Of a stretch of DNA of 64,000 nucleotides, positions 2,290-59,869 are shown in pieces. Numbering within the stretch: position 1 is the stretch's first letter; each line of letters starts with the position of its first letter. The stretch is from Mucilaginibacter sp. (lineage in GTDB: Bacteria > Bacteroidota > Bacteroidia > Sphingobacteriales > Sphingobacteriaceae): assembly GCA_025352225.1 (NCBI GenBank), contig JANXTT010000120.1, forward strand, positions 1-64,000, read 5' to 3'. The notes beneath the pieces were generated by a model. That model saw only the letters and a list, made by a program, of their open reading frames with translations, made no database searches and was not told the DNA's origin. The translations under genes and the position numbers were made by a program.

Positions 2290-2291
2290 TA

Positions 2292-3656: not shown

Positions 3657-3658
3657 GT

Positions 3659-5512
3659 TTACTTTTTAAGTTCTATAACTAATGTGGTTTTACCCGGCAA
3701 GCTTATATTTTTTAAGGTGGGTAATCCCTCGCCCGTTAAAACATTAATACCAGTATTAAATGCCTTTATCCGTTCGGCAAATCTATCTGTTGCCACAACT
3801 CTGCTTGTAGTATCACTATTGTAGGCCACCATAACCGTTTTTTTGGTATCATACCTAAAATATACGTATACACCGTTTTCCGGGATATACTGCATAAGTT
3901 TACCCGTTTGTAACGCGGTACAATTTTTACGGTAATTAGCCAATGTTTTTACATAGTTAAAAGCCTGATTTTCTTTTGCGGTGCGGCCCCCGGCTATAAA
4001 CTTATTGGTTTTATCGCCCGGCCACCCTCCCGGGAAATCAAGCCTTACCAAACCATCCGGATTGGAGTAGTTTTTCATCAATATCTCATCTCCGTAATAC
4101 ATTTGGGGGATACCGCGCATGGTAAGCAATAATGCCATCCCTGCTTTGTATTTGTCAAAATCTTCGCCTATTACCGAGTAAAACCGGCTCATATCATGGT
4201 TATCCAAAAACACCACGTTACGGGTAGGGTCCTGATACATAAAATCCTGTGCCAGTATGGCGTATAAACGATGAACACCATCTGTCCAGCCGTCTTTTCC
4301 ATTCAAGGCTTCGGCTATGGCATCTTTAACTTGTGCATCGGTAACACCCGGTAACTGGGTATCAAACCCACGGTTAACCGTATTGCCCTGGGTAAAAAAG
4401 GCCTGATTAGCAACCGACCATACCAGCGTTTCGCCAAAAATGGAAAAGCGAGGGTATTCTGCCTTAACTTTCTTCGCCCAACCAGCCATATAAGCAGCAT
4501 CGTTATACGGGTAAGTATCTAATCTAAACCCATCTACACCCGCATATTCTATCCACCAGATATGGTTTTGGGTGAGATAGTTTTGAACGTAAGGGTTGTT
4601 TTGATTGATATCAGCCATGCGGTGATCAAACCAGCCATCCAACATGATCTTTTTATCCATTGGCGACGCGTGCGGATCCATAACCGCCGCATCACGAAAG
4701 TTTGACTGGGTATATTTTGGCCATTGGTGCACCCAACTTTTCATGGGCATGTCTTTTATAAACCAATGCTCCGTGCCAACATGGTTATGCACCAGGTCTT
4801 TAATTACCTTAAGGCCCATGGCATGGCATTTTTCTACATAAGTTTTATAGAGTTCATTACTACCATAACGCGGGTCGGTTTTATAATGATCGGTTACGGC
4901 ATAACCATGATATGATGCCTGCGGCTCATCGTTCTCAATTTCGGGAGTTAGCCATACTGTGGTTATACCCAGATCCTTTAAGTAATCCAGATGATTAATA
5001 ACCCCCTGAATATCACCACCATGACGATAATAAATCGAATCGCGGTTAACCGCAGTTTCCAGCATGCCTGGTTTAGAATCATTAGCTGGATCGCCATTTG
5101 AAAAACGATCGGGCATGATAAGATAGATCAGATCTTTATTAGTAACTCCCTGCGCCCTATTAACCGAGTGATCGCGGCTTTTTAATGCATATTGATATTG
5201 AAGCGCGTGTTCACCCGGTTTTGTAAAGTTTATAGCAAACGTTCCCGGCCTTGCGGCAGTGGAAATTTCCAGATCTAAAAACAAATAATTAGGATTCTCT
5301 ACCTTATTAACACGCAAGAGTTTTACACCTGCATAATTTAATTTTACAGCATACCGGGCTATATTTTTACCATGAACTATGAGCTGCAATTTTGGATTAT
5401 GCATGCCAACCCACCAAAAAGCTGGTTCAATACGCTCAAGCGGGGGCACTTGGGCAAGCATATTTCCCGCAAGGCAAGTAAAGAATGCAACTATTGCTAG
5501 TTTTAGTTTCAT
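3659..5512 (-). CDS. GH13 cyclomaltodextrinase/neopullulanase-like alpha-glycosidase (SusA-like)
   Basis: N-terminal Ig-like domain (PAFWWVGMHNPKLQLIVHG), GFRLDTYPY, IFGETLVW, FLDNHDMSRF. Confidence 0.92.
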   Translation of the reverse strand: MKLKLAIVAFFTCLAGNMLAQVPPLERIEPAFWWVGMHNPKLQLIVHGKNIARYAVKLNYAGVKLLRVNKVENPNYLFLDLEISTAARPGTFAINFTKPGEHALQYQYALKSRDHSVNRAQGVTNKDLIYLIMPDRFSNGDPANDSKPGMLETAVNRDSIYYRHGGDIQGVINHLDYLKDLGITTVWLTPEIENDEPQASYHGYAVTDHYKTDPRYGSNELYKTYVEKCHAMGLKVIKDLVHNHVGTEHWFIKDMPMKSWVHQWPKYTQSNFRDAAVMDPHASPMDKKIMLDGWFDHRMADINQNNPYVQNYLTQNHIWWIEYAGVDGFRLDTYPYNDAAYMAGWAKKVKAEYPRFSIFGETLVWSVANQAFFTQGNTVNRGFDTQLPGVTDAQVKDAIAEALNGKDGWTDGVHRLYAILAQDFMYQDPTRNVVFLDNHDMSRFYSVIGEDFDKYKAGMALLLTMRGIPQMYYGDEILMKNYSNPDGLVRLDFPGGWPGDKTNKFIAGGRTAKENQAFNYVKTLANYRKNCTALQTGKLMQYIPENGVYVYFRYDTKKTVMVAYNSDTTSRVVATDRFAERIKAFNTGINVLTGEGLPTLKNISLPGKTTLVIELKK

Positions 5513-5523
5513 GGCTATTCTGA

Positions 5524-7983
5524 TTAATAATTTATTAAAAACCGGTCGTTCCTGTTTTTTACGAAGACACTTTTCACGTTTTCGCCCACCACCGGGTTTG
5601 CGCTGCCCTGCGGGTCAAATTTGGATATTGGTGTTAAAAAAGATATAAAATCATCATTTAAAGCGTTTTGCTTACCATTTAGCTTTATCGTAGCACCGTT
5701 ACCAAAACCATGCAATACCAGTTTAACGGTATTGAACTTTGATGTTAACGATCCTTCTGCCTTATCAAACACTATTGTTTTATTTGCAGGATCATAGGTA
5801 ATGGTACGTTTGTAATACGAGCCACCCTCATAGTTAAAGCTCTCACCATCGTCCTCATAATAAACATATTTATTTTGTACTGAACCCTGGTAAACGTGTA
5901 CAACTAAAGTATCGGTAGGCTTTTGAGCGGTTGTTTGCACTAATGATTGCATGGGTATAATACTGCTCTCTTTTACGTAAACAGGTAAGGTATGGGTAGA
6001 TAATTCAATTATTTTTTGCACGCTGCCGTTTTGCACTTCGCCGGTGTACATATCATACCATTTGCCTGCCGGGAAATAGATCTTTCCTAAAGTCTTATCG
6101 CCTTCGAACGGTGCAACTAAAAAGGCACTGCCAAACATATATTGGTTTTGAAACTGTTCGTTATAAATATTGGGATCAAAAGTATAATCAATAGCCAGGG
6201 AACGCATTACGGGGTGCCCATTCTGTGTAGCCTCATAAAATGTGGAATACAGGTATGGCATTAATTTATACCGCAGATTGATATAGTTGCGGGCAATTTC
6301 TAATACCTCTTCGCCATACGTCCAGGGTTCCGATGCTTTGGTATTAACTGCTGTATGGTTACGGAAGTATGGGCAAAACGCACCAATCTGTATCCACCGG
6401 GCATATAATGAGGTAGATGGGCCACCTGTAAAGCCGCCAATATCCATACCGGTAAAAGGCACGCCACTTAAGCCCAGACTATTTAATAAACGTACACCTG
6501 CCAGCATATGGCTATCCTCGGAGCGGTTATCTCCTGTCCATATCGCTGTATAGCGTTGTAAACCCGCATACCCGGCTCGGGTTAAAACAAATGGGCGTTT
6601 ATTAAATGCAGCGCGTGCACCTTCGTAACTGGCCCTGGCCATTTGCAGTGCATATACATTTCGTGTTTGCAAATGCGAGGCTTTTTTACCATCGTAATCA
6701 AAAATGATATTATCAGGCATTTTTTGGCCCCAGGTAGCTATCTCGTTCATATCGTTCCAGATGCCACTAATGCCGTCATCGCCATATTTCTTCAGCTCGG
6801 TTCCCCACCAGGCACGGGCCTTCGGGTTGGTAAAGTCCGGAAAATGGCACCAGCCCGGCCATACTTCGCCGGTGTAATTGGTACTATCGGGATATTTAGC
6901 AAAAATGTTTTGTTGAAGCCCTCTTTCATAAGTACCATACCCTTTTTCAACTTTCACACCGGGGTCAACTATTACGGTAAGTTTAAAGCCCATATCTTTT
7001 AGCTTATCGTTCATCTTTTTAGGGTCGGGAAAACGGGCCTTATCCCAGGTAAATACCTTGTAATGATCCATATAATGAATATCCAGCGTAATGCCATCTG
7101 CCGGTATTTTCTTTTCCCTTAAAGTATTAGCTATGCGAAAAACCTCTGCTTCGGGATAATAACTGTAGCGGTTTTGCTGATAGCCAAGGCTCCAGAGCGG
7201 AGGTAATTTCATCCGGCCGGTTAAGCCTGTGTATGCCGTAATTATATCGCCTATATGTTTGTTGTAGATGAAGTAATAATTCATTTCGCCTCCCCTTGCT
7301 CCAAAACACGAGAAACGATTATTACTTGCACCAAAGTTAAAGTCGCTTTGATAAGTGTTATCCATAAATATACCGTAATTCATATCATGATGAATGCCGA
7401 TATAAAAAGGTATAGTGGAGTAAATAGGATCCTGCCCGGTTGAATAGCCAAAAGCGTCGGTATTCCAGTTGGTGTACCCATTGCCTTTACGGTCCAAATT
7501 TCCCGTCTTTTCACCCAGGCCAATAAAACGTTCATCATCCTGCATTTTTTTATAGGTAGTTACTGATTCATTTACCCATGAGGTAGCTAATGATCCTTCG
7601 TCCTGATTTATCACCTTTCCATCTAAGGTTAAAAAGTTGATAGCGAAGGGCATTTTAGTAATATGTACTTGCAGTGAGTCTGTTAAAATATTGATCTCCT
7701 GATCGGTTTGTGTAATGGTGCTTTTTGTTACTTGCGGCTGGGCAATAACAGCATAAGAGAAATCTTTTTGTAGTTTTTGCTTATCAATTCTCACCCTGAT
7801 AACGCCAGCACTATAAACAGCTATTTGAGCATACGCGTTTTCCGTAGTTATGGTTATCTGCTGCCCATCAATAACGGCACTTGTTACCTTACCCGTATTT
7901 TTAACCGGGCTTATTTGTGCAAATATGGAATAGCGTGTTATAGTTAATGCTAAAATTAGCAAGAAAGGGTATTTGATATTCAT
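5524..7983 (-). CDS. GH31 alpha-glucosidase
   Basis: GIWNDMNE nucleophile motif, WTGDNRSEDSHM acid/base region, GVPFTGMDIGGFTG; signal peptide. Confidence 0.95.
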   Translation of the reverse strand: MNIKYPFLLILALTITRYSIFAQISPVKNTGKVTSAVIDGQQITITTENAYAQIAVYSAGVIRVRIDKQKLQKDFSYAVIAQPQVTKSTITQTDQEINILTDSLQVHITKMPFAINFLTLDGKVINQDEGSLATSWVNESVTTYKKMQDDERFIGLGEKTGNLDRKGNGYTNWNTDAFGYSTGQDPIYSTIPFYIGIHHDMNYGIFMDNTYQSDFNFGASNNRFSCFGARGGEMNYYFIYNKHIGDIITAYTGLTGRMKLPPLWSLGYQQNRYSYYPEAEVFRIANTLREKKIPADGITLDIHYMDHYKVFTWDKARFPDPKKMNDKLKDMGFKLTVIVDPGVKVEKGYGTYERGLQQNIFAKYPDSTNYTGEVWPGWCHFPDFTNPKARAWWGTELKKYGDDGISGIWNDMNEIATWGQKMPDNIIFDYDGKKASHLQTRNVYALQMARASYEGARAAFNKRPFVLTRAGYAGLQRYTAIWTGDNRSEDSHMLAGVRLLNSLGLSGVPFTGMDIGGFTGGPSTSLYARWIQIGAFCPYFRNHTAVNTKASEPWTYGEEVLEIARNYINLRYKLMPYLYSTFYEATQNGHPVMRSLAIDYTFDPNIYNEQFQNQYMFGSAFLVAPFEGDKTLGKIYFPAGKWYDMYTGEVQNGSVQKIIELSTHTLPVYVKESSIIPMQSLVQTTAQKPTDTLVVHVYQGSVQNKYVYYEDDGESFNYEGGSYYKRTITYDPANKTIVFDKAEGSLTSKFNTVKLVLHGFGNGATIKLNGKQNALNDDFISFLTPISKFDPQGSANPVVGENVKSVFVKNRNDRFLINY

Positions 7984-8097
7984 GTTTATAGTATTATTTA
8001 TAGTAGCAGGGGGTGTATTGGCTGCTATTGATCATTCTGTATCAGCTTAAATACCAGGTTGGTACTATGCAAAGCTTGCTTTAAACATCTTATAAAC

Positions 8098-8121
8098 TAA
8101 CCCGCCAATTAAGGCGGGCTA
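8098..8121 (-). terminator. Putative terminator/attenuator hairpin between susE-like and GH31 genes
   Basis: cccgcc-aattaa-ggcggg stem followed by T-rich sequence on the minus strand. Confidence 0.5.
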
Positions 8122-8143
8122 GCTTAGGGTCAGTTATCAATAA

Positions 8144-9166
8144 TTATTGTTTAACAAGTGTGTAAGTAAGGTGAACCAGATCTATGGTGATCAAGTAGTT
8201 CCCAGTTGCTCCTACAGCAATGTTGTTGTTGTTTGCCTGATCAAGTGTTCCTGGGGTAGTTACAGAACCGTAGTTTGTTCCCCAGTCATGGTTTTTTCTA
8301 AATTTAATAGCTTTTCCTCCAATTAAAGGTACAACTGCCGACCATGTTTGGGTACCATTATTGTACTTCAAATCTGTATCACTACCCCAACCACCTGGTG
8401 TTGCATCACCAATTACGCTCCAAAGCAATGGCGTAGTTGACCATGTATTAGCATTAAGATCAATAGTTACCTGGAAAGAACCGGCATTAGGTACATATAA
8501 ATTACCACCACTTGTGCTAATTGTAGTTGCACTTGCATAGCCATAAGCTATATTCCAGTTTTTAGCAGGTGTTACCTTAAATTGGAACGACCCGCCAGCT
8601 GGGTAATTAATTACCCCTGTATAAATGCCATTGCTTGTTGCAGATATTAAACTATCAGCCGTTGATGGTGACCAGCCCTGATAATCGCCGGGTACATAAA
8701 CAAATGAGGTTAACGCGTATGGATTAACTGTTACGCTTACCACATTGGAATAAATTGGAGCAATGTTACTGCTTATAGATGATTTAACCCTGGTTTCAAT
8801 AATGGAATTAACGCCTGTAGGTAAACCTAAACCTAATAAAATAGAATTAAAATCTATTACATTATAATTTTTATAAGCTGTGGTAGTTGCTATTTCTTTA
8901 GGTTTAGAAAAATTGTTTCCCTTTACATCAATTTGCAATACATTGGTAATTGCAGCATTATAACCATAATTAGCATTAGACCAATTGAAGTTTATAGCGG
9001 CATTGGTAGCAATATTTTTTGTCAACACTAAATTTGGCGTTGAAGCGGTAAGCACAGCGGGGGTTCCGCTGGTGGCCTGTATTAAATTGTCGTCCTTTTT
9101 GCATGACGATAACAAAAACAGCGATAAACCGGTAACGAGTAAAAACCTTGTTAATAATGTTTTCAT
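8144..9166 (-). CDS. SusE/SusF-like outer-membrane starch-binding lipoprotein
   Basis: Lipobox LFLLSSC; SusE-type N-terminal domain and C-terminal carbohydrate-binding repeats; the track ORF extends to 9238 but Met25 (9166) starts the signal peptide. Confidence 0.88.
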   Translation of the reverse strand: MKTLLTRFLLVTGLSLFLLSSCKKDDNLIQATSGTPAVLTASTPNLVLTKNIATNAAINFNWSNANYGYNAAITNVLQIDVKGNNFSKPKEIATTTAYKNYNVIDFNSILLGLGLPTGVNSIIETRVKSSISSNIAPIYSNVVSVTVNPYALTSFVYVPGDYQGWSPSTADSLISATSNGIYTGVINYPAGGSFQFKVTPAKNWNIAYGYASATTISTSGGNLYVPNAGSFQVTIDLNANTWSTTPLLWSVIGDATPGGWGSDTDLKYNNGTQTWSAVVPLIGGKAIKFRKNHDWGTNYGSVTTPGTLDQANNNNIAVGATGNYLITIDLVHLTYTLVKQ

Positions 9167-9243
9167 CTTCTTAAGAATTTTATGTTTAAATTGATTTATA
9201 TCCTTAATGCGGGTCAGGATATATTTACCCCGACCCACATTTA

Positions 9244-10833
9244 TTAATAGCCTGTATTTTGTTTTAAATTGGGGTTATTAGTAAGATCGGTATTAGGGAT
9301 AGGCATTAAGTTACGGAAATTGGCTACTGTTGTACCTGCTTTAACATTTCCTTTCCATGGCCATACGTAGCTACCATCAGTAAATTGACCAAAACGTATC
9401 AAATCTGTTCTGCGGTGCATTTCCCATTGCAACTCTCTTCCTCTTTCATCCAATATAAATGGCAGGGTTAATTGCACAGGCGTTATATTACCTGCTAAAC
9501 TACCATCATAAGCCCTTGTACGCACTAAATTAACATACGTTAAGGCCGTAACGACATCACCACCAGAGCCTCCGCGTAAAACTGCCTCTGCATACATTAA
9601 ATAAATGTCAGCCAAACGAAACATTGGGAAATCCGTATCAGGGAAAGTACTGGTTGGATCTGACCCAGCCGCGCCGGTTGAGGTAACATTTTTATATTTT
9701 GCAATAAGGTAACCATCTGTGAAAGAATATTGGTCGCTGATATCAAGATTTTGACCTGTAGAAAAAAGCATGTTCCTTTTATCAACGTTATCTGTAAATA
9801 AACTAACAAACGCCTTAGTTGTACGCAATCCGCTCCAACCGCCGCCGATACCAAAATCCGAAGCATTTTCAGCTCCACCTACTGGCGCATGTACCAAATA
9901 GGTCATCCCACCATAGCCTTGTGTATGTACGCCATCAAAAGTTATCGGGAATATGATCTCTTTTGAATTGTTATTATCCGCAAGAAAAAGGTTTTTATAA
10001 TGTGGCTCAAGCGTATAGCCAGCTGCTATTATTTTGCTACAATAGGTAATAGCATCGGTTGATCGGTCTGTGCCTGTATAAACTTTGGCATTTAAATAAA
10101 GTTTAGCGAGCAGTGTCCATGCCGCTGCCTGATCAGCACGGCCATATTCGTTATTACGGGCAGGTACAATATCGCTATCAATTGCTTTTAATTCACTTTC
10201 AATATAAGCAAATATTGCTGCACGTGGTTTCTGAGGTGCAAAAAATGCTCCTACAGGGTCATTTTCTGTCACTAATGGTACATTACCATATAGATCAACT
10301 GCATGCCAATAGCTTAATGCCCTTAAAAATCGTGCTTCTGCCCTGTATTGTTTAGCCAGAGTAAGGTTGCTACCTGTAATATTATTAGCCGCTAGTTTTG
10401 AATCAGAAGTGGCACGTATAAATTCATTACAAGCAGATATTTCGTAGTAAATACGGTCATACATAGCACGTATAAATTCATTATCCGCATTCCAATTCAT
10501 ATTGTGCAAATCATGTATGGTACCATCATTCCACGCAATTATAGCTTCGTCAGTTGTTAATTCCTGCATGTTGTAATACTCCCGCAGGTAATTTGAAAAA
10601 CCTTCGTCAATACCGGCAATATCAGGTTTTCCTGCTTGCGCCTGTTGCCCGCTTAACGCAAATACTGCGTAAAGTTTAGCTAATACAGGTTTATAGTTGG
10701 CAAAATCCGTGTATACGTTGGCCGATGTTAAATCATAAGCCGGCGTTAAATTCTTTTTACATGATGTTGTAATTGTTAGCAGCAGCATACTTGCAACCGC
10801 TAACTTTTTTAATATTGTTGATGTCATGATCAT
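9244..10833 (-). CDS. RagB/SusD family nutrient-uptake lipoprotein
   Basis: Lipobox TITTSC; SusD hallmarks (RAEARFLRALSYWHAVDLYGNVPL, DERGRELQWEMHRRTDLIRFGQ). Confidence 0.95.
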   Translation of the reverse strand: MIMTSTILKKLAVASMLLLTITTSCKKNLTPAYDLTSANVYTDFANYKPVLAKLYAVFALSGQQAQAGKPDIAGIDEGFSNYLREYYNMQELTTDEAIIAWNDGTIHDLHNMNWNADNEFIRAMYDRIYYEISACNEFIRATSDSKLAANNITGSNLTLAKQYRAEARFLRALSYWHAVDLYGNVPLVTENDPVGAFFAPQKPRAAIFAYIESELKAIDSDIVPARNNEYGRADQAAAWTLLAKLYLNAKVYTGTDRSTDAITYCSKIIAAGYTLEPHYKNLFLADNNNSKEIIFPITFDGVHTQGYGGMTYLVHAPVGGAENASDFGIGGGWSGLRTTKAFVSLFTDNVDKRNMLFSTGQNLDISDQYSFTDGYLIAKYKNVTSTGAAGSDPTSTFPDTDFPMFRLADIYLMYAEAVLRGGSGGDVVTALTYVNLVRTRAYDGSLAGNITPVQLTLPFILDERGRELQWEMHRRTDLIRFGQFTDGSYVWPWKGNVKAGTTVANFRNLMPIPNTDLTNNPNLKQNTGY

Positions 10834-10840
10834 TTTTTTT

Positions 10841-13825
10841 TTAGAAGCCTAAGTTTAAACCGAATGAAAAAACACGTGGCCGTGGATAGAAGTTATTATC
10901 TATACCGCCCTGAACTTCGGGATCTAAGCCTGTATATTTAGTAATTACAAATACATTGGAAACGTTTACTGTTGCGCGTAAATTAGCTGCTCCTTTAATT
11001 AGTTTGCCAAAATTATAACTCAGGTTAGCATTATCCATCCTCAGGAAAGAGCCGTTCTCTACATAATAATCTGAGTATAACTGGTAATTTTTAAAGTTGG
11101 TATTTAGCACGCTTGATGATAAGTTACCTAGGTAATTTGGAAACTTAAATCCTGCAATCGCACCTGTGCTGGCACTAAAAGCATTATAAATGTAATTACC
11201 TACATTGGCACGCATTGAAAAACCTAAACCCCAGTTTTTGTAATTAGCGGTTGAGTTAAAACCCATATAGAATTTAGGGTTTGGTTGTTTATAGATATAC
11301 CTGTCGGCAACACCCGCGTCAGCAACACCATTGTTATTTATATCTGCATACACCCCTTCCATCGGGTTTCCTTTAGCATCATATATCTGTTTGTTTACCA
11401 GAAACGCATTTGGCGTAGCACCTACCAAATAAGCCTGGATTGTATTACCTACACCGCCAGGTATACCACCAACACCAATTGGGGTATTACTATTAGTACC
11501 TGTTTTTGATAGATTAGTTAGCTTAACATCATTATAGCTGATGTTGTAACCAAAATCCAAGTTTAGATCTTTGCTTTTAATTGCTTTTACATTGATCGAA
11601 AACTCAGCCCCCTTACTTTCAAGGTTACCAACATTGGTAAATAAATGATTGGTTAAGTTTGAACCAGCTGGCACTGGTATGTCAGCCAACAAATCTTTAG
11701 TTTTTTTGGAATAATAGTCAATTGTACCTGTGATCCTACCTTCGAAAAAACCATAATCTAAACCTAAATTCGATGTGGTCGTTTCCTCCCATTTAATATT
11801 TAAATCATATCCTTCTGGTCTTAATGTCGATGTAAAGCTATTACCAAATTGGTACTGAGACCCCCCATCGCCTAAAGTGTATTTTGGCAGGTAAGGGAAA
11901 TAGCCATTGATATCTTGCTGACCTGTTATACCATAACTCACACGCAGCTTAAGATCTGACACTACTTTGGAATCTTTTAAAAAGGATTCCTGGTTGATCC
12001 GCCATGCCAATGACCCCGACGGGAAGATACCATACCTGTTTTGTGGGGCAAATCTGGAAGAGCCATCACGCCTTACTGTGGCTGTTAACAAGTATTTGTC
12101 AAAAAACGAGTAGTTCAATCTCGCGAAGGTAGATTCTATATAATAATAATTTTTATACGGTAGAACAGATTGTTTGATACTTGTAGTCTGATCAGCCGCA
12201 AAATAATCTTGACCCGGAGCTGAAAACTGAAAATACTGGTAAGAATATCCAGCGGTAAGATCAATATGACTATTAATGCTCTTTAGATCTTTAACATAAT
12301 TTAAATAGTAATCATTAACATAATTTAAATTATCCTGAGAATATGAGGTATAACTACCTTTTGAAGCAAAAGCAGAAGCCGCAGTTACTGGTAAAGATGT
12401 GCTACCTTGCCCATGAGAAACATCATAACCAAGGTTTACATTGGCTTTCAGATCTTTTAAAAACGGAAATATATAATTGAATTGTATATTACCTATACTT
12501 CTTTTCACATTACTTACATCCTGTTTTTCTTCTAATAATCCAAGCGGGTTTCTAGGTGCAAGTGTATTAGGCACTATTGGAGCAGTAGTTGTAAGCCACT
12601 CATAATATCCGCCATAATTTGAGTTACCCGAATATACCGGTTGTGTAGGGTCAAAGCTCACTGCAGAGCCTATAGCCCCCTGATCAGCAAATCTACTTTT
12701 AGAATAAGTTCCTTTCAGATTAACGTCTACTTTAAGGCTATGGTTAAAGAAATCATGATTGATATTGAAAGCCGCTGTGGTCCTTTTTAGATTACTTGTT
12801 TTCAACACACCATCCTGATTAAGGTAGCCTACCGATAACCGATACGGAAGCGCTTTGATACCACCGCTAAAGCTGATATTGTTATCAGTACTATACGCAT
12901 CATGGTAGATCACTTTTTGCCAATCTGTATTAGATGTTCCTAACAAGCTGCTTTGAGAATTACTGCCGCTTACCGCCGCATCTGCTTTTACCAATGTGGT
13001 AAATTGATCGGCAGACAATACGGGAACTTCCTTTATTACTTTAGATAATGAATTAAGCGTGTTAAAATTTACCGTTAGTTTGTCACTTTTACCTTTTTTA
13101 GTTGTAATGATAATTACGCCGTTTGACGCACGTGAACCATAAATGGCTGTCGCGGAAGCATCTTTTAAAATGGTTTGTGATTCAATATCATTCGGATTGA
13201 TAAGACTTAACGGATTTGGAGAGCCCGAGATCGAAGAATTACTTACCGGAACCCCGTCAATAATTATCAACGGATCATTACTGGCATTAAGTGACGCTCC
13301 GCCACGTATGCGTATCGTACTCCCAGAGCCTGGAGCTCCACCGTTTGATGTTACTTGAACCCCTGCTACTTTACCGCTGATCAGCTGTTCGGGGGTTGTT
13401 ATTGGCCCCTGGTTAAAATCTTTAGCGGTAATTGTGGTTACAGACCCCGTTAAGTCCTTTTTGCGTTGGGTACCATAACCTACTACTACTACTTCGCTCA
13501 GGTTGCGGCTGTCTGGCTTTAAATTAACATTCAATACTGCGTTACCATCACTTACTACAACAGAGCTTTGCAATGTTGAGTAACCAATAAACCTAGTAAC
13601 AACGGTATAACTTCCAGGTTTAACACCGGATATTTTAAACACACCGTTAGCATCTGTAGTGCTACCCATTGTTGTGCCGGATATCGTTACTGAAGCTCCG
13701 GGTAGGGGTTGTTTTGTCTCATCCAAAACTTTCCCTGAAATGCTTCCTATTTGTGCGAATGCCCAGCTTGACAGCATTAATAATGCACTAAGGAGCAGAT
13801 ACTTTTTAAGATAAAATATTCTCAT
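10841..13825 (-). CDS. SusC/RagA family TonB-linked outer-membrane protein
   Basis: Carboxypeptidase-D-like N-domain, VVVGYGTQRKKDLTGSV, plug LIIIDGVPV, C-terminal RPRVFSFGLNLGF. Confidence 0.96.
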   Translation of the reverse strand: MRIFYLKKYLLLSALLMLSSWAFAQIGSISGKVLDETKQPLPGASVTISGTTMGSTTDANGVFKISGVKPGSYTVVTRFIGYSTLQSSVVVSDGNAVLNVNLKPDSRNLSEVVVVGYGTQRKKDLTGSVTTITAKDFNQGPITTPEQLISGKVAGVQVTSNGGAPGSGSTIRIRGGASLNASNDPLIIIDGVPVSNSSISGSPNPLSLINPNDIESQTILKDASATAIYGSRASNGVIIITTKKGKSDKLTVNFNTLNSLSKVIKEVPVLSADQFTTLVKADAAVSGSNSQSSLLGTSNTDWQKVIYHDAYSTDNNISFSGGIKALPYRLSVGYLNQDGVLKTSNLKRTTAAFNINHDFFNHSLKVDVNLKGTYSKSRFADQGAIGSAVSFDPTQPVYSGNSNYGGYYEWLTTTAPIVPNTLAPRNPLGLLEEKQDVSNVKRSIGNIQFNYIFPFLKDLKANVNLGYDVSHGQGSTSLPVTAASAFASKGSYTSYSQDNLNYVNDYYLNYVKDLKSINSHIDLTAGYSYQYFQFSAPGQDYFAADQTTSIKQSVLPYKNYYYIESTFARLNYSFFDKYLLTATVRRDGSSRFAPQNRYGIFPSGSLAWRINQESFLKDSKVVSDLKLRVSYGITGQQDINGYFPYLPKYTLGDGGSQYQFGNSFTSTLRPEGYDLNIKWEETTTSNLGLDYGFFEGRITGTIDYYSKKTKDLLADIPVPAGSNLTNHLFTNVGNLESKGAEFSINVKAIKSKDLNLDFGYNISYNDVKLTNLSKTGTNSNTPIGVGGIPGGVGNTIQAYLVGATPNAFLVNKQIYDAKGNPMEGVYADINNNGVADAGVADRYIYKQPNPKFYMGFNSTANYKNWGLGFSMRANVGNYIYNAFSASTGAIAGFKFPNYLGNLSSSVLNTNFKNYQLYSDYYVENGSFLRMDNANLSYNFGKLIKGAANLRATVNVSNVFVITKYTGLDPEVQGGIDNNFYPRPRVFSFGLNLGF

Positions 13826-32103: not shown

Positions 32104-33729
32104 CTAAAAAATATACTTCGTACTTAAAAAGTTAGAATCGTGGTTATTTACTATTTCGTTAATCAAATCCTTGTTGGCATCATTAAGTTTAGTAGCCACC
32201 AATGAGCGGATGGAAAAACAACGTAAAGCATCTACAACCGATAAAGTACCCTCGGCACTATCTTTACGGCCAGTGAACGGAAACACATCAGGGCCGCGCT
32301 GGCACTGGCTATTAATGTTTACCCTGCTTACCAGGTTTACAAACGGATCTATCAATGCCGATAGCTCTTGCGCGTCATTACTAAATATACTCACCTGCTG
32401 GCCGTGTACCGAATCAATTTGGTACTGAATGGGCTCCTCTATCGATTCATATGGTACAACCGGGATAATTGGCCCAAACTGTTCTTCGCGGTAAAGTTTC
32501 ATTTTATCGTTTACCGGATAAACAATTGCCGGAAAAACAATAGAGGCCGATGTGGCACCTCCGTTCTCGTTAATAACTTTGCCGCCGTTTAAAATGGCAT
32601 CTTCAATACATTCTTTAATATACTCAGGCTTCCCAGGTTCAGCTAAGGGAGTAATGCTGACACCTTTTTCCCAGGGCATACCGCATTTTATTTTGCTGAT
32701 CTCGGCACTTAGTAACTTCAAATACTCATCGGCAACAGCCTTATGCACAAAAATAATTTTTAACGCGGTACAACGTTGCCCGTTAAATGATAGTGCTCCC
32801 AGTACGGTTTCGTTAACCGCCAGTTGTAGATCGGCATTTTTGGTAACAATGGCTACATTTTTAGCATCAAGGCTCAAAATTGCTCTTAAGCGATTTACCT
32901 TAGGGTGCATTTTTTTCAGCTCATTAGCAACCTTACTTGAGCCTATAAGCGTTAGCACATTTATTTTGCCCGATTGCATTAAGCCCGGTACAGTATTGGC
33001 CCCGCGCCCGTATATGGTGTTTACCACACCCTTTGGAAATGACGCCCTAAAAGCTTCCAATAAGGGGTAATGCACCAAAGTACCATGCTTTGGTGGTTTA
33101 AAAAGTATGGTATTACCCATAATAAGGGCAGGTATCAAAGTGGTAAAAGTTTCGTTAAGGGGGTAGTTAAAGGGGCCCATACATAGCACAACACCAAGCG
33201 GTGAGCGGCGCGATTGGGCCACAATACCCTGCTCTATTTCAAAACGTGATGATTGACGGTCAATGTCTTTAAGCGCGTCAATAGTTAGGTTTATATATTC
33301 TATGGTACGGTCAAACTCCTTTGTCGAATCGGCAAAGGATTTACCAATTTCCCACATAATCAATTTAATAACCTTGTCGCGTTGTTCAAGCATCTTAAAA
33401 GTAAATTGCTCCACACACTTTATACGGTCGGCAACGCCCATGGTTGGCCATTCGCCGCGGCCGTTGTTATATGCGGCTGTAGCGGCATCAAGGGCTTCCA
33501 TCGCTTCCTTTTCGGTACACAAGGGATAGCTACCTATAACTTTTCTTTTTAAGCCATCAGGAGCGGGGAAACAAATGGGCGAAACCACCTCACTAAATGG
33601 GCCGTCCCACTTCCGCATCTCGCCATCGCATAAATATTCACGCTGATGGACCTCTCCAGCCAGCTGATATTCGTCCGGGATTTTACTTTCCTCAATAAAC
33701 AAAGCTGTTAATTGATTTTCAAAACTCAT
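32104..33729 (-). CDS. gapN: NADP-dependent (non-phosphorylating) glyceraldehyde-3-phosphate dehydrogenase-like aldehyde dehydrogenase
   Basis: ALDH family motifs (GPFNYPLNETFTTLIPALIMGNTILFKPP, FNGQRCTALK, EEQFGPIIPVVPYE) of GapN type; Met35 (33729) preferred because the track ORF overlaps the upstream MFS gene. Confidence 0.8.
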   Translation of the reverse strand: MSFENQLTALFIEESKIPDEYQLAGEVHQREYLCDGEMRKWDGPFSEVVSPICFPAPDGLKRKVIGSYPLCTEKEAMEALDAATAAYNNGRGEWPTMGVADRIKCVEQFTFKMLEQRDKVIKLIMWEIGKSFADSTKEFDRTIEYINLTIDALKDIDRQSSRFEIEQGIVAQSRRSPLGVVLCMGPFNYPLNETFTTLIPALIMGNTILFKPPKHGTLVHYPLLEAFRASFPKGVVNTIYGRGANTVPGLMQSGKINVLTLIGSSKVANELKKMHPKVNRLRAILSLDAKNVAIVTKNADLQLAVNETVLGALSFNGQRCTALKIIFVHKAVADEYLKLLSAEISKIKCGMPWEKGVSITPLAEPGKPEYIKECIEDAILNGGKVINENGGATSASIVFPAIVYPVNDKMKLYREEQFGPIIPVVPYESIEEPIQYQIDSVHGQQVSIFSNDAQELSALIDPFVNLVSRVNINSQCQRGPDVFPFTGRKDSAEGTLSVVDALRCFSIRSLVATKLNDANKDLINEIVNNHDSNFLSTKYIF

Positions 33730-33755
33730 TGTTTTTTTATTTTGTGATACGGTAC

Positions 33756-35063
33756 TTATAATTCTATCTTCTTCATTTTGGGCACCAGCAAATGCATTAT
33801 AACCCAGGCAAGTATATATGCTGAACCGCAAACAAAAAACATAATATAGTAAGCGGTTTCTATCTGATGGATGGAACGGTAATAAATAAACATTCTCTTT
33901 TGCACAAACATGGAAAGAAAGATACCTCCAATAGCTCCAAACATACCCCCTATGCCCGTTACAGAGCCCACGGTTCTTTTAGGAAACATATCTGATACTG
34001 TTGTAAATATATTGGCACTCCATGCCTGGTGTGCCGATGTTGCAATGCCGATAACAATTACCGCGAGCCATACATTTACATTGCCTAATATTTGAGCAAA
34101 AACTATGGGTATTACAAATAGCGCATATATAAACATGGATGTTTTACGGGCTTTAAATACTGTCCAGTTGTTTTTGATAAGTTTCATGGGGATATACCCA
34201 CCTCCTATACTGCCAAACGTTGACATGGTGTAAACCAACGCAACTGGCAATGCAACCGCTGTACCTTTAATGCCATATTCGCTTTCCAAAAAATCGGGTA
34301 ACCAAAACAGATAAAACCACCAAATAGGGTCGGTTAAAAACTTTCCTACAATAAAAGCCCACGTTTGTTTAAAACTTAACAGCCTTAACAACGAAATTTT
34401 CGGCTCATTTTCAGCTAAATCCCCATGGTCGTTCTCATCAGTATCACTATTAATATAATCATACTCTGCCTTGGATAATCGCTTATGTTTAGCCGGGGTA
34501 TCATAAAACCAGAGCCACAAAACCAACCATATGCCGCCAATGGATCCTGTAATAATGAAAGCCCATTGCCAGCCCCATGCCGCTGCAATAAACGGAACAG
34601 TTAATGGTGCAAAAATAGCACCTACGTTTGACCCTGAATTAAATATCCCTGTAGCAAGGGCTCTTTCTTTTTTAGGGAACCACTCTGCTACCGCTTTAAT
34701 TGCTGCGGGGAAGTTACCTGATTCGCTCACACCCAATGCCGACCGGGCAACACTAAAGCCAAAAGTGGTTTTAACAAATGCATGGCATACTGCAGAAATG
34801 CTCCACAATAATGTGGCCCAAAAATAGCCCATTTTTGTTCCAAGCTTATCTATTAGCCTGCCAGCACCCAACATACCCAAGGCATACGATATTTTGAAGG
34901 CTATTTCAATATTAGCATAATCACCATCATCCCATTTAAATTCAGTAGTGAGGTTCGATTTGAGTAAACTTATAACCGCCCTGTCCAAATAGTTAATAGT
35001 AGTGGCAAAAAACACAAGCGCACAAATTGTCCACCTAAAGTTTCCTATTTTTTTTTCTTCCAT
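33756..35063 (-). CDS. MFS transporter, hexuronate (ExuT-like)
   Basis: RWTICALVFFATTINYLDRAVIS, SESGNFPAAIKAVAEWFPKKERALATGIFNSGSNVGAI; in uronate gene cluster. Confidence 0.88.
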   Translation of the reverse strand: MEEKKIGNFRWTICALVFFATTINYLDRAVISLLKSNLTTEFKWDDGDYANIEIAFKISYALGMLGAGRLIDKLGTKMGYFWATLLWSISAVCHAFVKTTFGFSVARSALGVSESGNFPAAIKAVAEWFPKKERALATGIFNSGSNVGAIFAPLTVPFIAAAWGWQWAFIITGSIGGIWLVLWLWFYDTPAKHKRLSKAEYDYINSDTDENDHGDLAENEPKISLLRLLSFKQTWAFIVGKFLTDPIWWFYLFWLPDFLESEYGIKGTAVALPVALVYTMSTFGSIGGGYIPMKLIKNNWTVFKARKTSMFIYALFVIPIVFAQILGNVNVWLAVIVIGIATSAHQAWSANIFTTVSDMFPKRTVGSVTGIGGMFGAIGGIFLSMFVQKRMFIYYRSIHQIETAYYIMFFVCGSAYILAWVIMHLLVPKMKKIEL

Positions 35064-35093: not shown

Positions 35094-35753
35094 TTATCTG
35101 CAAGATTTCACAATCTCTAATGCTTGTTTTGTTGCAACAGTAAGCTCTGCGTATTGTTCTTTTTCCATTACTTCTTTACTTACCAGCTTGCTCCCCATAC
35201 CAACCGCGCATACGCCGGCCTTAAACCAGCCCGAAATGTTTTCTTTATTTAATTCAACCCCACCTGTTGGCATAAATAATAAGTTAGGAAACAATTCTTT
35301 GATACCCGATAAAAAGGAAGGCCCTAAAATATTACCCGGGAATAATTTGATAACCTTAGCCCCAAGCTTTTCTGCCCGGATGATCTCTGAGGGTGTCATA
35401 CAACCGGGGAACCATAAAATATTGTGCTTATCTGCAACAGGCACTACATCTTCTACTAACCCAGGGCTTATAATATAGTCTGCACCGGCATCAATAAATT
35501 TTTGGGCGGTTTCACCATCTTTAATAGTGCCAATACCAAGGTACATATCTTTTAGTTCGGTATCGCATACCTTGCGCAGTTTCTCAAAGTTTTTAAAAGC
35601 CGCTTCACCACGGTTGGTGTACTCTATGGTTTTAATGCCTGCTTCGTAAAGGGCATATAAAATTTTTACACTAACATCTGCATCTTTGTTAAAATACAAC
35701 GGCAAAATACCTTGCTCAGGTATTAATTTTAAAAGTGTCGCTTTCTTATCCAT
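35094..35753 (-). CDS. eda: Bifunctional KHG/KDPG aldolase
   Basis: LIPEQGILPLYFNKD, EYTNRGEAAFKNF, GIGTIKDGE, FFPGCMTPSEI, KLFPGNILGPSF, PTGGV; Met35 (35753) preferred. Confidence 0.92.
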   Translation of the reverse strand: MDKKATLLKLIPEQGILPLYFNKDADVSVKILYALYEAGIKTIEYTNRGEAAFKNFEKLRKVCDTELKDMYLGIGTIKDGETAQKFIDAGADYIISPGLVEDVVPVADKHNILWFPGCMTPSEIIRAEKLGAKVIKLFPGNILGPSFLSGIKELFPNLLFMPTGGVELNKENISGWFKAGVCAVGMGSKLVSKEVMEKEQYAELTVATKQALEIVKSCR

Positions 35754-35841
35754 CTTAATTATTCTGATTACTATAATTTCATTTGGGGCTAAAGTAGAAA
35801 GAATTAATATAAACATTACAGAACCATCTGCTTTTACCACT

Positions 35842-35864
35842 AAATATTTACGCAATCGTTCCCG
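35842..35864. promoter_or_regulatory. Shared 23-bp candidate operator upstream of aldolase-exuT-gapN and kdgK-like genes
   Basis: aaatatttacgcaatcgttcccg, identical to 47305-47327. Confidence 0.7.
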
Positions 35865-35907: not shown

Positions 35908-35915
35908 TATTTTTG
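35908..35915 (+). promoter_or_regulatory. Candidate -7 box (TATTTTTG) for the downstream sugar kinase
   Basis: Matches Bacteroidetes TAnnTTTG consensus, 69 bp upstream of ATG. Confidence 0.45.
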
Positions 35916-35983: not shown

Positions 35984-37009
35984 ATGTCTAAAAAAGTCGT
36001 AACACTTGGAGAAATAATGTTGAGATTATCAACTCCTGATTTTAAAAGATTTGTACAAACTGACACCTTCGACGTTACGTATGGCGGTGGCGAAGCAAAC
36101 GTTGCAGCCGCGCTTTGTAACTATGGGTTAAATGGCGTATTTGTATCAAAAGTACCTGCAAACCCTATAGGCCAGGCGGCTATTAACCATTTGCGCCGCT
36201 ACGGTGTGGATACACAATATGTTGCCCGTGGCGGTAAACGTTTAGGTATTTACTTTTTAGAAACAGGCGCGTCCATGCGTGCATCTCAAGTAGTATACGA
36301 TCGTGCCGACGCTTCCATATCAGAAGTGGAAGCCAGCGAATTTGATTTCGACAAAATATTTGAAGGCGCCCATTGGTTCCATACTACGGGCATCACACCA
36401 GCCTTAAGCGATAAAGCCGCCGCACTTACTTTAGCTGCTTTAAAGGCAGCTAAGGCAAAAGGCATTACTACCAGTATTGACCTTAACTATCGCAAAAAAC
36501 TTTGGACAAAAGAAAAAGCCCGCCAGGTAATGACCGAGCTTTGCCAGTATGTTGATGTTTGTATCGGTAACGAAGAAGATGCTGATACAACTTTAGGCTT
36601 TAAAAGCGCGGGTACCGATGTTACTAAAGGTGAATTGAACCTTGATGGCTACAAAGATGTGTTTAAACAAATGAAAGATAAGTTTGGCTTTAAATACATA
36701 GCTTCTACATTAAGAGAAAGCCATAGTGCATCTGATAACGGATGGAGTGCCCTGGTATACGATGGCAATGAATTTTACCATACCAAAGAGTATAGCGTTC
36801 GTATTGTTGACCGTGTTGGCAGTGGCGATTCATTTGCGAGCGGTTTTATTTACGGCTTGGTTACCGGATTGCCTTTGGGCGATGCTGCCGAATTTGGTGT
36901 GGCAGCTTCGGCCATTAAACATACTATCCCCGGCGACTTGAACCATGCTACTTTATCAGAAGTGCAAGAACTTGTTAAAGGCGATGGTTCTGGCCGCGTT
37001 CAACGATAG
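35984..37009 (+). CDS. kdgK: PfkB family sugar kinase, 2-keto-3-deoxygluconate kinase-like
   Basis: VTLGEIMLRLSTPDFKRFVQTDTFDVTYGGGEANVAAAL, VDRVGSGDSFASGFIYGL. Confidence 0.88.
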   Translation: MSKKVVTLGEIMLRLSTPDFKRFVQTDTFDVTYGGGEANVAAALCNYGLNGVFVSKVPANPIGQAAINHLRRYGVDTQYVARGGKRLGIYFLETGASMRASQVVYDRADASISEVEASEFDFDKIFEGAHWFHTTGITPALSDKAAALTLAALKAAKAKGITTSIDLNYRKKLWTKEKARQVMTELCQYVDVCIGNEEDADTTLGFKSAGTDVTKGELNLDGYKDVFKQMKDKFGFKYIASTLRESHSASDNGWSALVYDGNEFYHTKEYSVRIVDRVGSGDSFASGFIYGLVTGLPLGDAAEFGVAASAIKHTIPGDLNHATLSEVQELVKGDGSGRVQR

Positions 37010-37128: not shown

Positions 37129-37578
37129 ATGATTATAGATAGCTTAGTAAACGCCGACAAGTACTATCGTCTACACAAAAACTTCGCAGTAGCTTTTGAT
37201 TTTCTTAAAGCTCAGGAGCTTAAAGCGTTAGCAATTGGCAAACACGAGGTAGCAGATGGGGTGGTGGTTATCGTGTCAGAAAAAGAAGGCGTTGCTGCCG
37301 AAGTTGCTACTGCAAAGTTTGAGTGCCATAACAAACATATTGATATCCAGCTTTGTATCCGCGGAAACGAAACCCTTGGCTGGAAACCACGTAATTTTTG
37401 CCGCAGCCCGCAGGGCGAATACAACGACGAAAAAGATGTGATCTTCTATAACGATGCTCCCGACATGTTCTTCCAATTACGATCAGGGCAATTTGCGGTG
37501 TTCTATCCCGAAGATGTACATGCCCCAATGATTGGTGAGGGATTGATCAAAAAACTGGTCGTAAAAGTGAAGATATAA
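37129..37578 (+). CDS. YhcH/YjgK/YiaL family protein (cupin-like putative anomerase)
   Basis: MIIDSLVNADKYY..., ECHNKHIDIQLCIRGNETLGW, FAVFYPEDVHAPMIGEG, KLVVKVKI. Confidence 0.9.
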   Translation: MIIDSLVNADKYYRLHKNFAVAFDFLKAQELKALAIGKHEVADGVVVIVSEKEGVAAEVATAKFECHNKHIDIQLCIRGNETLGWKPRNFCRSPQGEYNDEKDVIFYNDAPDMFFQLRSGQFAVFYPEDVHAPMIGEGLIKKLVVKVKI

Positions 37579-43673: not shown

Positions 43674-45575
43674 TTATTTTTTATGTATTTGTTTCAACGC
43701 CCATACCACCAGGTCATTTGCTGCTTTATAATTATCATAATCTGCCGGGAGTTTTCTGCCATCGGTATACTCGTTGTAAAACCAGGGGTCGCCAACGGCA
43801 AATACAGCGCCCTTACCGTATTTGGCTGTGGCAATTATCACGTCTTTGCTATCAATAAGGCTGGCTATTGCCGGAGGTTTTACTGTAAATGTGGAGATCT
43901 CTTTAATGTAGATCTTTTTGGCTGTACTAAAAACGGCATTGTTGGCAAGGATGGTTAAAGCCCCAGTTTCAAAATGAGGTGTTACCACATGGTTCCGGCT
44001 ATCCTCGTTATCCTGAATGCCAAACTTTGCCAGTAGTTTGTTTAAATGCTTAAACTCGGCGTTCCCGGTGTCGTTGTTTAATACAATAAGTACGCCACCG
44101 GCCTTAACCCAATCACTTATGGCTTTGATGTGCGGTGCTTCAATATATTTGGTGTTAGGGTTTTCTTTGGGGATATCAGGATCAACAATAATGTAGATAT
44201 CGCCTTTTTTTAAATTTATCGCAGTGGGCGCATCATACAAAGTGGTAGTTTTTACCCCATAATTATGAAATGCGTTGGCGAAGAAAGAGAAACCATTATT
44301 ATCCTGCTCGTCCCATTTATAATGGAAAGAGATAGTTTTTCCGGTAATATCTTTTTTATGTTCATCGTTATAGTACGAGTCCAGTATCACGGTTTTGCCG
44401 TTGCCAATGCCGCGGTTAGCATTACGCTCCATCTCAACACTGGCCTGCAAAAAAGCACCAATACCTTTTGGATCATTAGTTACTACTTTTTCGCTTAAAT
44501 AATATTGATAACTGCCATCCCGGTAAGGGGTACCACCTAAGCCCGATACACTAACCGTCCCCTTTAAATTAACCTGCCCGCTTGCATCCGTCTCAATAAA
44601 CTGGTGGAGTATACCCTTATAACCCTTATTGGCCGTTTGCAAAAAACTTTCGGGTAAGTAACCGTTGCGTACCCCTTTGGCCAAAGCATACACAAACATG
44701 GACGATGCCGAAGATTCAAGGTAATTCCCTTTCTCTGCGCCCTTATCTAATATATCAAACCATACGCCCGATTTTGGATCCTGATATTGCCTGATAGCTA
44801 TGGCCAACCGGTTTAAAATGGCTATTAGTTCTGCCCTTTGCGGGTGATTTTTAGGGAAATTATCCAAAACATCCACCAGGGCTAAAGCGTACCATCCATC
44901 AGCACGTGCCCAAAAGTGAGGCGAGCGCCCTGTTTTAGGATCGGCCCAATGCTCTTTTTTGCTTTCATCCCAGGCATGGTATAATAAACCTGTTTTAGCA
45001 TCGCGCGTGTGGCGTTCAATTAAAATGAACTGTTTAGCTATATCGTTAAAATCGGCATCGGTATGGAATGTGGCAGCATACGCTGTATAAAAGGGTTCGC
45101 CCATATACAAACCATCGAGCCACATTTGGTTAGGGTAGCGCTTTTTATGCCAAAAGCCACCTTCGGGGGTGCGTGGTTGGTTCTTCAACTGGTTGTACAG
45201 TAAACCTGCTGCCTTATAATATTTTTCAATACCCGTTATATTATAAAGCGATAGCACATTGCGGCCACATAATACATTATCAATATTGTAATCATCCGGG
45301 GTATAAGTACGGATGGTGCCATCTTTACCCACAAAATTATCCATGCTTTTTTGCAGGTAGGTAAAATATTGCCTATCGGCGGTTTGTTGCCATACGCCCT
45401 CAATGCCTGTTAATAGCACCCCCTGGTCATACGTCCATTTGGTAGCGGCGGTATCGGGCCAAAGCCTCATTACGGTAGCTGCAATTTTTTGCGACATAGG
45501 TTTGTTTTGAGCCAAAGCATTAAACCCTGCCATTACTTGCAAGAAAACAATACCGTAAATGATCGCTTTTTTCAT
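43674..45575 (-). CDS. GH88/GH105 unsaturated rhamnogalacturonyl hydrolase fused to a C-terminal glutamine-amidotransferase-like (DUF4350-type) domain
   Basis: GH105 motifs (NQMWLDGLYMGEPFYTAYA, FWARADGWYALALVDVLDNFP); C-terminal half YIIVDPDIPKENPN...ISDWVKAGGVLIVLNND resembles GATase1-like folds. Confidence 0.88.
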   Translation of the reverse strand: MKKAIIYGIVFLQVMAGFNALAQNKPMSQKIAATVMRLWPDTAATKWTYDQGVLLTGIEGVWQQTADRQYFTYLQKSMDNFVGKDGTIRTYTPDDYNIDNVLCGRNVLSLYNITGIEKYYKAAGLLYNQLKNQPRTPEGGFWHKKRYPNQMWLDGLYMGEPFYTAYAATFHTDADFNDIAKQFILIERHTRDAKTGLLYHAWDESKKEHWADPKTGRSPHFWARADGWYALALVDVLDNFPKNHPQRAELIAILNRLAIAIRQYQDPKSGVWFDILDKGAEKGNYLESSASSMFVYALAKGVRNGYLPESFLQTANKGYKGILHQFIETDASGQVNLKGTVSVSGLGGTPYRDGSYQYYLSEKVVTNDPKGIGAFLQASVEMERNANRGIGNGKTVILDSYYNDEHKKDITGKTISFHYKWDEQDNNGFSFFANAFHNYGVKTTTLYDAPTAINLKKGDIYIIVDPDIPKENPNTKYIEAPHIKAISDWVKAGGVLIVLNNDTGNAEFKHLNKLLAKFGIQDNEDSRNHVVTPHFETGALTILANNAVFSTAKKIYIKEISTFTVKPPAIASLIDSKDVIIATAKYGKGAVFAVGDPWFYNEYTDGRKLPADYDNYKAANDLVVWALKQIHKK

Positions 45576-46440: not shown

Positions 46441-47211
46441 TTATCTGCCTAACCACCCGCCATCAACGGGTAGAATGATGCCATTAACGTAATCTGATGC
46501 TGCTGATGCTAAGAAAACCGTAGCGCCACCCAAATCCTCTGCCTGGCCCCACCGTGCAGAAGGGATCCGGTCTAATATCGATTTACTACGGTCAGGGTCG
46601 GCTCTTAGGGCTTCGGTATTATCAGTAGCAATATAGCCCGGGGCTATCGCATTTACATTTACCCCTTTTGATGCCCACTCATTAGCAAAAGCTTTGGTTA
46701 AACTACCAATAGCCCCTTTACTTGCCGCGTAACCAGGCACATTGATGCCACCCTGAAACGTTAGTAACGAAGCTGTAAAAATCACCTTGCCGTATCCTTG
46801 CGCTATCATTTGCCTCCCTACCTCGCGCGTTAAAATAAAGGGGGCGTCAAGGTTAATATTTAATACGGTATCCCAATAATCATTAGGATGCTCGGCAGCG
46901 GGCTTACGCATAATGGTGCCCGCATTGTTTACTAAAATATCTATCCTGGAGTTTTCGTTTAAAAGACGCTTAGCAAACGTTTCTAACGATGCACGGTCAC
47001 TAAAATCGCATTGATACGCTTTAAATTTCCGGCCCACCGCAATTACTTCTTGCTCAACCTGACTGTTAGTTAAGGCAATAGATGCCGAAACACCAATAAT
47101 ATCAGCCCCGGCACCCGCTAAAGCTAAAGCCATTGCTTTGCCAATACCTCGGTTGCAGCCTGTTACAACGGCAATTTTACCCGATAGATCAAATAGTTTT
47201 TGTATTTGCAT
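46441..47211 (-). CDS. kduD: 2-dehydro-3-deoxy-D-gluconate 5-dehydrogenase-like SDR
   Basis: SDR motifs TGCNRGIGKAMA, NNAG, YAASKGA; FDLSGKIAVVTG start typical of KduD; operonic with kduI. Confidence 0.92.
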   Translation of the reverse strand: MQIQKLFDLSGKIAVVTGCNRGIGKAMALALAGAGADIIGVSASIALTNSQVEQEVIAVGRKFKAYQCDFSDRASLETFAKRLLNENSRIDILVNNAGTIMRKPAAEHPNDYWDTVLNINLDAPFILTREVGRQMIAQGYGKVIFTASLLTFQGGINVPGYAASKGAIGSLTKAFANEWASKGVNVNAIAPGYIATDNTEALRADPDRSKSILDRIPSARWGQAEDLGGATVFLASAASDYVNGIILPVDGGWLGR

Positions 47212-47301
47212 AGGTTATATACTAAAAATGTAATTCCTGAGGGGTCAATAATTTCCCCAAGCAATTCTAAGGAGTTTTTAAGTAGAAAGTTACCAATACG
47301 C

Positions 47302-47327
47302 CAAAAATATTTACGCAATCGTTCCCG
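47302..47327 (-). promoter_or_regulatory. kduD operon promoter: TATTTTTG -7 box overlapped by the shared 23-bp motif
   Basis: Minus strand CGGGAACGATTGCGTAAATATTTTTG; 23 bp identical to 35842-35864. Confidence 0.65.
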
Positions 47328-59754: not shown

Positions 59755-59834
59755 GAGGCTGTATCCAAATTGTAATGCCCCCCAAAAGTTAGACACTTAT
59801 GGGGGGCATTACATTACAATTTGGATACAGCCTC
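59755..59834. repeat. 80-bp near-perfect palindrome (possible MITE/IS relic or bidirectional terminator)
   Basis: gaggctgtatccaaattgtaa (59755-59775) pairs perfectly with ttacaatttggatacagcctc (59814-59834); inner tgcccccc/ggggggca stem. Confidence 0.85.
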
Positions 59835-59869
59835 TTTTTATTTAAGATGTTATAAGAGGTATGTTTTCA

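Follow-up and report, generated by a model that had tools for sequence, protein, structure and literature searches.

A 23-bp sequence, AAATATTTACGCAATCGTTCCCG, that stands twice in the 64-kb stretch of Mucilaginibacter DNA analysed here (64,000 nucleotides, hereafter the window) is predicted to be the operator of a single LacI-family regulator that would run a small pectin/galacturonate regulon, a reading to which we assign, from comparison of sequences across genomes, a probability of about 87%. The candidate regulator is encoded on contig C1 of the same genome, and the site recurs with its orthologues in relatives, where it lies at a fixed distance from a promoter element on the strand of the target operon.

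An exact repeat upstream of two uronate operons

The 23-mer is found exactly at 35842-35864 and, 11.5 kb away, at 47305-47327, as an earlier note made from the window alone had stated, and there is no third match in the 64 kb at up to three mismatches. The note had judged such a repeat unlikely by chance, and this was borne out, with 0 copies expected and no match to the 23-mer in any of 100 dinucleotide shuffles. Both copies are noncoding and, read on the minus strand, face the downstream genes; they lie 89 bp (copy 1) and 94 bp (copy 2) from the likely start codons, the ATG at 35753 for eda and the ATG at 47211 for kduD, in agreement with the roughly 90 bp upstream of minus-strand operons given before. 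The downstream eda start at 35753, which had also been preferred earlier, is favoured by orthologues that begin MDKK. The two predicted operators and the genes beside them are listed here, with E values from a profile, R1, that is described below.

35842..35864, minus strand: predicted operator copy 1, CGGGAACGATTGCGTAAATATTT read toward eda, single type; exact repeat, R1 match E 2.0e-6 genome-wide, kept in orthologous gaps
47305..47327, minus strand: predicted operator copy 2, CGGGAACGATTGCGTAAATATTT read toward kduD, single type; exact repeat, R1 match E 3.2e-5 genome-wide
32104..33831, minus strand: aldehyde dehydrogenase (gapN in the earlier note), substrate not settled; PF00171, no NCBIfam equivalog above its cut-off; the coordinates are those of the ORF, the true start probably lying further downstream
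33756..35063, minus strand: MFS hexuronate-type transporter, exuT-like; PF07690, best NCBIfam match D-galactonate transporter, below cut-off
35094..35753, minus strand: eda, KDPG/KHG aldolase; PF01081, NCBIfam PRK07114/eda just under cut-off
35984..37009, plus strand: kdgK-like sugar kinase, divergent from eda; PF00294, KDG/KDGal kinase models below cut-off
37129..37578, plus strand: YhcH/YjgK/YiaL family protein; PF04074
37827..38840, minus strand: second PfkB-family sugar kinase; PF00294
38841..40241, minus strand: uxaC, uronate isomerase; PF02614
40299..41951, minus strand: uxaA, altronate dehydratase; PF20629, PF04295
41957..43462, minus strand: uxaB, tagaturonate reductase; PRK03643 564 bits, over cut-off
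43674..45575, minus strand: GH88/GH105 unsaturated glucuronyl/galacturonyl hydrolase; PF07470
45585..46415, minus strand: kduI; PRK00924 430 bits, over cut-off; PF04962
46441..47211, minus strand: kduD; TIGR01832 337 bits, cut-off 338.85

Copy 1 lies in a divergent gap, with eda-exuT-aldehyde dehydrogenase on the minus strand and, on the plus strand, the PfkB-family KDG kinase (kdgK-like; orthologues 90-96% identical in 6 relatives) followed by yhcH. The cluster behind copy 2 continues beyond GH105 into uxaB-uxaA-uxaC-PfkB, with a gap of 211 bp ahead of uxaB. The two minus-strand operons first described therefore stand as far as they went, the divergent kdgK side of copy 1 and the extension of the second cluster into uxaB-uxaA-uxaC-PfkB having been overlooked; the gapN assignment holds at the level of the aldehyde dehydrogenase family (PF00171), no NCBIfam equivalog scoring above its cut-off.

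Elsewhere in the window, positions 370-13825 hold a starch-type polysaccharide utilisation locus (susC, susD, susE-like, GH31, cyclomaltodextrinase, MFS, alpha-amylase) without the operator. A match to GGGAACGTTTGC at 5235 was set aside as a chance occurrence, being located inside the cyclomaltodextrinase gene and unscored by R1. A short exact inverted repeat of terminator-like appearance, with 18-bp seeds about 62 bp apart, occupies 59755-59837; the genes on either side of it end at 59729 and 59870.

Four loci in the genome and a candidate regulator

Across the genome, a search at up to three mismatches yielded one extra close copy of the 23-mer (2 mismatches), on contig C130, and contig C1 carries a weaker motif copy, CGGGAACGTTTGC, between lacI and GH28-pectinesterase-GH43. 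On C130 a susC-susD pair is preceded by two motif copies that meet head to head and together form a perfect inverted repeat some 40 bp long, ATATTTGTGCAATCGTTCCCGGGAACGATTGCACAAATAT (L003 1501-1542; G000:C130:107445-107486); the susC-susD pair is probably the pectin-oligosaccharide importer of the regulon. The plain 3-mismatch pattern search was too noisy in distant genomes, and we replaced it with R1, which was built from 45 sites upstream of LacI orthologues in other genera, with loci named Mucilaginibacter left out. Applied to the own genome (G000, 4.56 Mb), R1 gave five matches at E < 1e-4, which correspond to four loci (the lacI/GH28 gap, susCD with both palindrome halves, and the two window sites), and the next match had E ~1.

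These counts bear on the reading of the repeat as a dispersed element or the remnant of a mobile one. Duplication or transposition can yield an exact 23-bp repeat 11.5 kb apart, but the genome scan that the earlier note had proposed as a check returned only four loci, all before pectin/uronate operons or a susCD pair; no longer repeat flanks the site, and the site is conserved across families. On the genome-wide copy count, the R1 matches and the conservation in the eda/kdgK gap (below), we consider a dispersed repeat ruled out.

The earlier note had found no regulator in the window and placed the factor in trans, which fits a candidate on contig C1. The genome contains three LacI-HTH genes in all. 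One of them (G000:C1, 348 aa; L091 8220-9266, minus strand; hereafter C1 LacI) is divergent from the GH28-pectinesterase-GH43 operon, with a motif copy in the gap between, and no motif was found near the other two. The C1 protein combines an N-terminal LacI HTH (PF00356, 48.4 bits against a cut-off of 27) with a C-terminal periplasmic-binding-protein-like sensor domain (PF13377, PF00532), and its full-length profile matches the structures of CcpA, PurR, RbsR and LacI; by sequence it is a member of the LacI family.

The site and the candidate regulator in relatives

When loci of relatives were fetched by the motif alone, a dozen genomes turned out to have an orthologue of C1 LacI adjoining the motif, at 60-83% identity. 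An alignment of these LacI proteins was then used to scan named genomes and gave 80 loci from Mucilaginibacter, Pedobacter, Chitinophagaceae, Runella and others, in which the motif pattern occurred 69 times against 1 for the reversed control, and 56 of the 80 lacI orthologues had the motif within 600 bp upstream. A pattern-free word count led to the same site: AACGATTGC was the commonest 9-mer, present in 42 of 71 thinned lacI upstream regions against a shuffle maximum of 5 for comparable words, and the next commonest 9-mers were words of the same site. The motif occupies lacI's own promoter region across Sphingobacteriales and Chitinophagales. Downstream of the sites stand, in the great majority of cases, genes for GH28, GH105, pectinesterase, uxaB, uxaC, kduD, eda and susCD, lacI lying on the opposite side, so that both the enrichment upstream of pectin/uronate genes and the conservation upstream of orthologues for which the earlier note had asked to look were found.

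Within the genus, 27 genomes have the orthologue, and 21 of them gave an R1 match at E <= 1e-3; of the 46 that lack it, none did (Fisher p 3e-13, kinship ignored). Six of the 27 had no R1 match at E <= 1e-3, two of these having weaker matches, and ten genus genomes with the orthologue showed no motif upstream of lacI itself. The eda/kdgK gap retains the site in 6/6 genomes with the orthologue, our own included; in three genomes without the orthologue it has diverged.

The recognition helix of the protein follows the same division. Close LacI paralogues with the helix SxSxVSKAL rather than STSTVSRAL had no motif upstream, and in G107, a genome of another family, the motif is present and the LacI is only 58% identical but carries the STSTVSRAL helix of the motif-associated group. 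The sister LacI group with the SxSxVSKAL helix (L110-L132), which lacks a motif copy and often adjoins an exuT-like MFS gene, is possibly a second uronate regulator with another site. In one relative lacI is tandemly duplicated beside the operator (L054 6194-7231 and 7236-8264), one copy having the helix STSTISRAL in place of STSTVSRAL.

We weighed whether some other factor owns the site, be it of GntR type, of hybrid two-component/AraC type, or another of the genome's own LacI proteins. Bacteroides pectin systems are often under hybrid two-component systems (PMC3878776), and in G107 one motif copy stands upstream of an uncharacterised gene (L048). The motif, however, tracks one LacI orthologue group together with its recognition helix, sits in the promoter region of that gene and was not seen near either of the genome's other LacI genes, and the pectin-linked HTCS sites described in PMC3878776 are direct repeats; we therefore regard another owner as improbable. 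Of the earlier assignment to a LacI/GntR-type operator, the LacI half is upheld by the one orthologue group that tracks the motif, and the GntR half found no support.

Predicted single and double operators

The 128 distinct sites share a unit of CGGGAAC joined to GATTGC, followed by R-Y and then by an AT-rich stretch. The core pattern with which sites were collected fixes most core positions, and the logo columns outside the search pattern are the unbiased ones. The ATTGC side faces the regulated operon. A central CG is present in all sites, and single sites are symmetric at only 4 of 7 positions about it. The odd-centred pseudo-palindrome GNAANNNTTNC proposed in the earlier note is probably off by half a base, the logo being centred between C and G, like the majority of LacI-family sites.

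Double sites form good inverted repeats whose CG centres are 12 bp apart, and a second CG-centred unit lies exactly 12 bp upstream in 87 of 128 sites (53 of 94 unique left arms). This second unit is found in many lacI/susC promoters and is absent from the eda/kduD promoters. Doubles occupy lacI/susC promoters in 69/85 regions (kinship ignored), and singles the eda, kduD, uxa and GH105-first promoters in 14/16 (a hand tally, kinship ignored). The 40-bp palindrome of C130 had prompted us to consider the window copies as half-sites of an AraC-type or other dimer, which was rejected when the unit shared among relatives proved to be the 13-bp core by itself. At L065 6004-6038, upstream of a uxaB-uxaA pair, the site occurs as a tandem direct repeat with a spacing of 22 bp, and its orientation is opposite to the rule.

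A fixed distance to the -7 box

In most promoters the target-operon strand carries a TAnnnTTG box that starts 58 or 59 bp from the site's first C. Of 88 thinned sites that face a target, 62 have an exact TAnnnTTG at +57 to +60, where the background is 0.15 per offset, compared with 0/10 lacI-facing sites and 5/88 on the reverse strand (kinship ignored). By target class the spacing is seen in 7/7 sites for GH105, 16/19 for GH28 and 26/36 for susC, and also in cases of kduD, uxaB, uxaC, pectinesterase and GH43. TAnnnTTG is a looser form of the textbook element, and it came to light once the search pattern had been relaxed; exact TAnnTTTG showed no enrichment at a fixed distance from the site. 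The primary sigma factor of Bacteroidota recognises TAnnTTTG at -7 and TTTG at -33, the latter not having been found in Flavobacterium johnsoniae (PMC7366714). A logo aligned on the box showed a weak TTT near -33 and nothing stronger. Three boxes are predicted in the window:

47262..47269, minus strand: predicted -7 box TAGAATTG of kduD, exactly +58 from operator copy 2
35789..35796, minus strand: candidate -7 box TACTTTAG of eda, +68 from operator copy 1, one helical turn beyond +58
35908..35915, plus strand: candidate -7 box TATTTTTG of the divergent kdgK, which fits TAnnTTTG; TAATTTTG is conserved there in relatives

The eda promoter of the window thus has no box at +58, TACTTTAG standing at +68 instead. 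In orthologous eda promoters TACTTT(T)AG stands at +67 to +69, or at +57 in one relative (L070), about one helical turn apart. With about 52 bp between it and the -7 box downstream, the operator centre would fall near -62 from the transcription start, and this fixed, helically phased distance on the target strand amounts to a class-I-like geometry.

The AT-rich tail and the fixed distance to the -7 box are also what a core-promoter or UP element without a dedicated regulator might present. The core of the site, however, is GC-rich, specific to a class of genes, confined to genomes with the LacI orthologue and not found elsewhere in the genome, which makes such an element a very improbable explanation.

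Activation or contact inhibition

A site that lies upstream of the core promoter in one helical phase and one orientation suggests direct contact with RNA polymerase. We propose that C1 LacI would bind the 23-mer sites at four loci, namely lacI/GH28-pectinesterase-GH43, susCD, eda-exuT-aldehyde dehydrogenase with kdgK-yhcH, and kduD-kduI-GH105-uxaBAC, and would touch RNA polymerase from one helix face, probably through the alpha-CTD over the AT-rich tail. The signal may be a breakdown product of uronates, for example KDG or galacturonate. We lean somewhat toward activation over contact inhibition as the effect, given how weak the promoters appear on their own and how strictly the spacing is kept.

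The same LacI at the same sites could instead act as a classical repressor released by a uronate inducer, the spacing then reflecting contact inhibition of RNA polymerase as with GalR at gal P1. Most LacI-family proteins are repressors that occupy DNA in the ligand-free state, and autoregulation is predicted for 72% of them (PMC4052901); GalR at -60.5 represses P1 through the alpha-CTD and activates P2 (PMC4693257). A repressor is harder to reconcile with a site held upstream of the core promoter at fixed phase and orientation, which leaves the -7 and -33 regions uncovered, and the weak -33-like TTT is a better fit to activator-dependent promoters. We accordingly treat repression as a tenable alternative of lesser probability.

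Returning to activation, the fullest version that we propose, and give about even odds, is that a Bacteroidota LacI would be a direct class-I activator, with an asymmetric, oriented operator near -62 that is phase-locked to TAnnnTTG with little or no -33 element. Doubled operators would mark the regulator and susCD promoters and singles the intracellular catabolic operons, so that one regulator would span the route from outer-membrane uptake to central metabolism.

Relation to known systems

With a site that precedes uronate catabolic operons and is conserved in relatives with the regulator, a LacI uronate regulon is of a known kind, predicted in Bacteroides. There KdgR (BT0487), UxaR (BT0824) and UxuR (BT1434) are LacI-family regulators predicted to govern the use of galacturonate, glucuronate and KDG (PMC3878776, PMC4052901), and the present case, likened to them by published description, shares the LacI family, the Bacteroidota, the uronate catabolic targets and a prediction by comparative genomics. 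It differs, as far as sequence can tell, in its taxa, in the joint control of susCD/pectinase and cytoplasmic genes, and in operators that are phase-locked, oriented and sometimes doubled. In Bacteroides, control of most rhamnogalacturonan/pectin loci with susCD is attributed to hybrid two-component systems, whereas here the LacI site precedes susCD, GH28 and pectinesterase too, and the fixed promoter spacing seen here is not mentioned for the Bacteroides regulators in the accessible sections of PMC3878776 and PMC4052901. The central CG of the present sites and their position are typical of LacI-family sites (PMC4052901); the asymmetry of the present single sites is unusual for LacI operators. 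In the open-access literature we found no earlier description of such a regulon in these groups.

KdgR of Dickeya/Erwinia belongs to the IclR family and ExuR/UxuR of E. coli to the GntR family; they act on the same pathway genes (kduI, kduD, kdgK, eda, uxa, pectinases) through other protein families and sites. CRP class I promoters have their sites at -61.5 or -72.5, in fixed helical phase and distance. The present promoters would be alike in phase and distance, those of eda lying about one turn further out, although CRP is an unrelated protein and activation here is a proposal. Another parallel is E. coli GalR at gal OE (-60.5), a LacI/GalR-family protein at about -60 that contacts the alpha-CTD (PMC4693257). 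GalR does so at one well-known promoter pair, whereas the present geometry is repeated at dozens of target promoters and the site is asymmetric and oriented.

Significance

The analysis names a likely master regulator, and its operator, for pectin and galacturonate use in Mucilaginibacter, Pedobacter and Chitinophagaceae, groups that include many degraders of plant matter. If the proposed mechanism is true, it would also be a rare case, recognised from sequence only, of a LacI-type protein in fixed-distance contact with the unusual RNA polymerase/sigma promoter of Bacteroidota.
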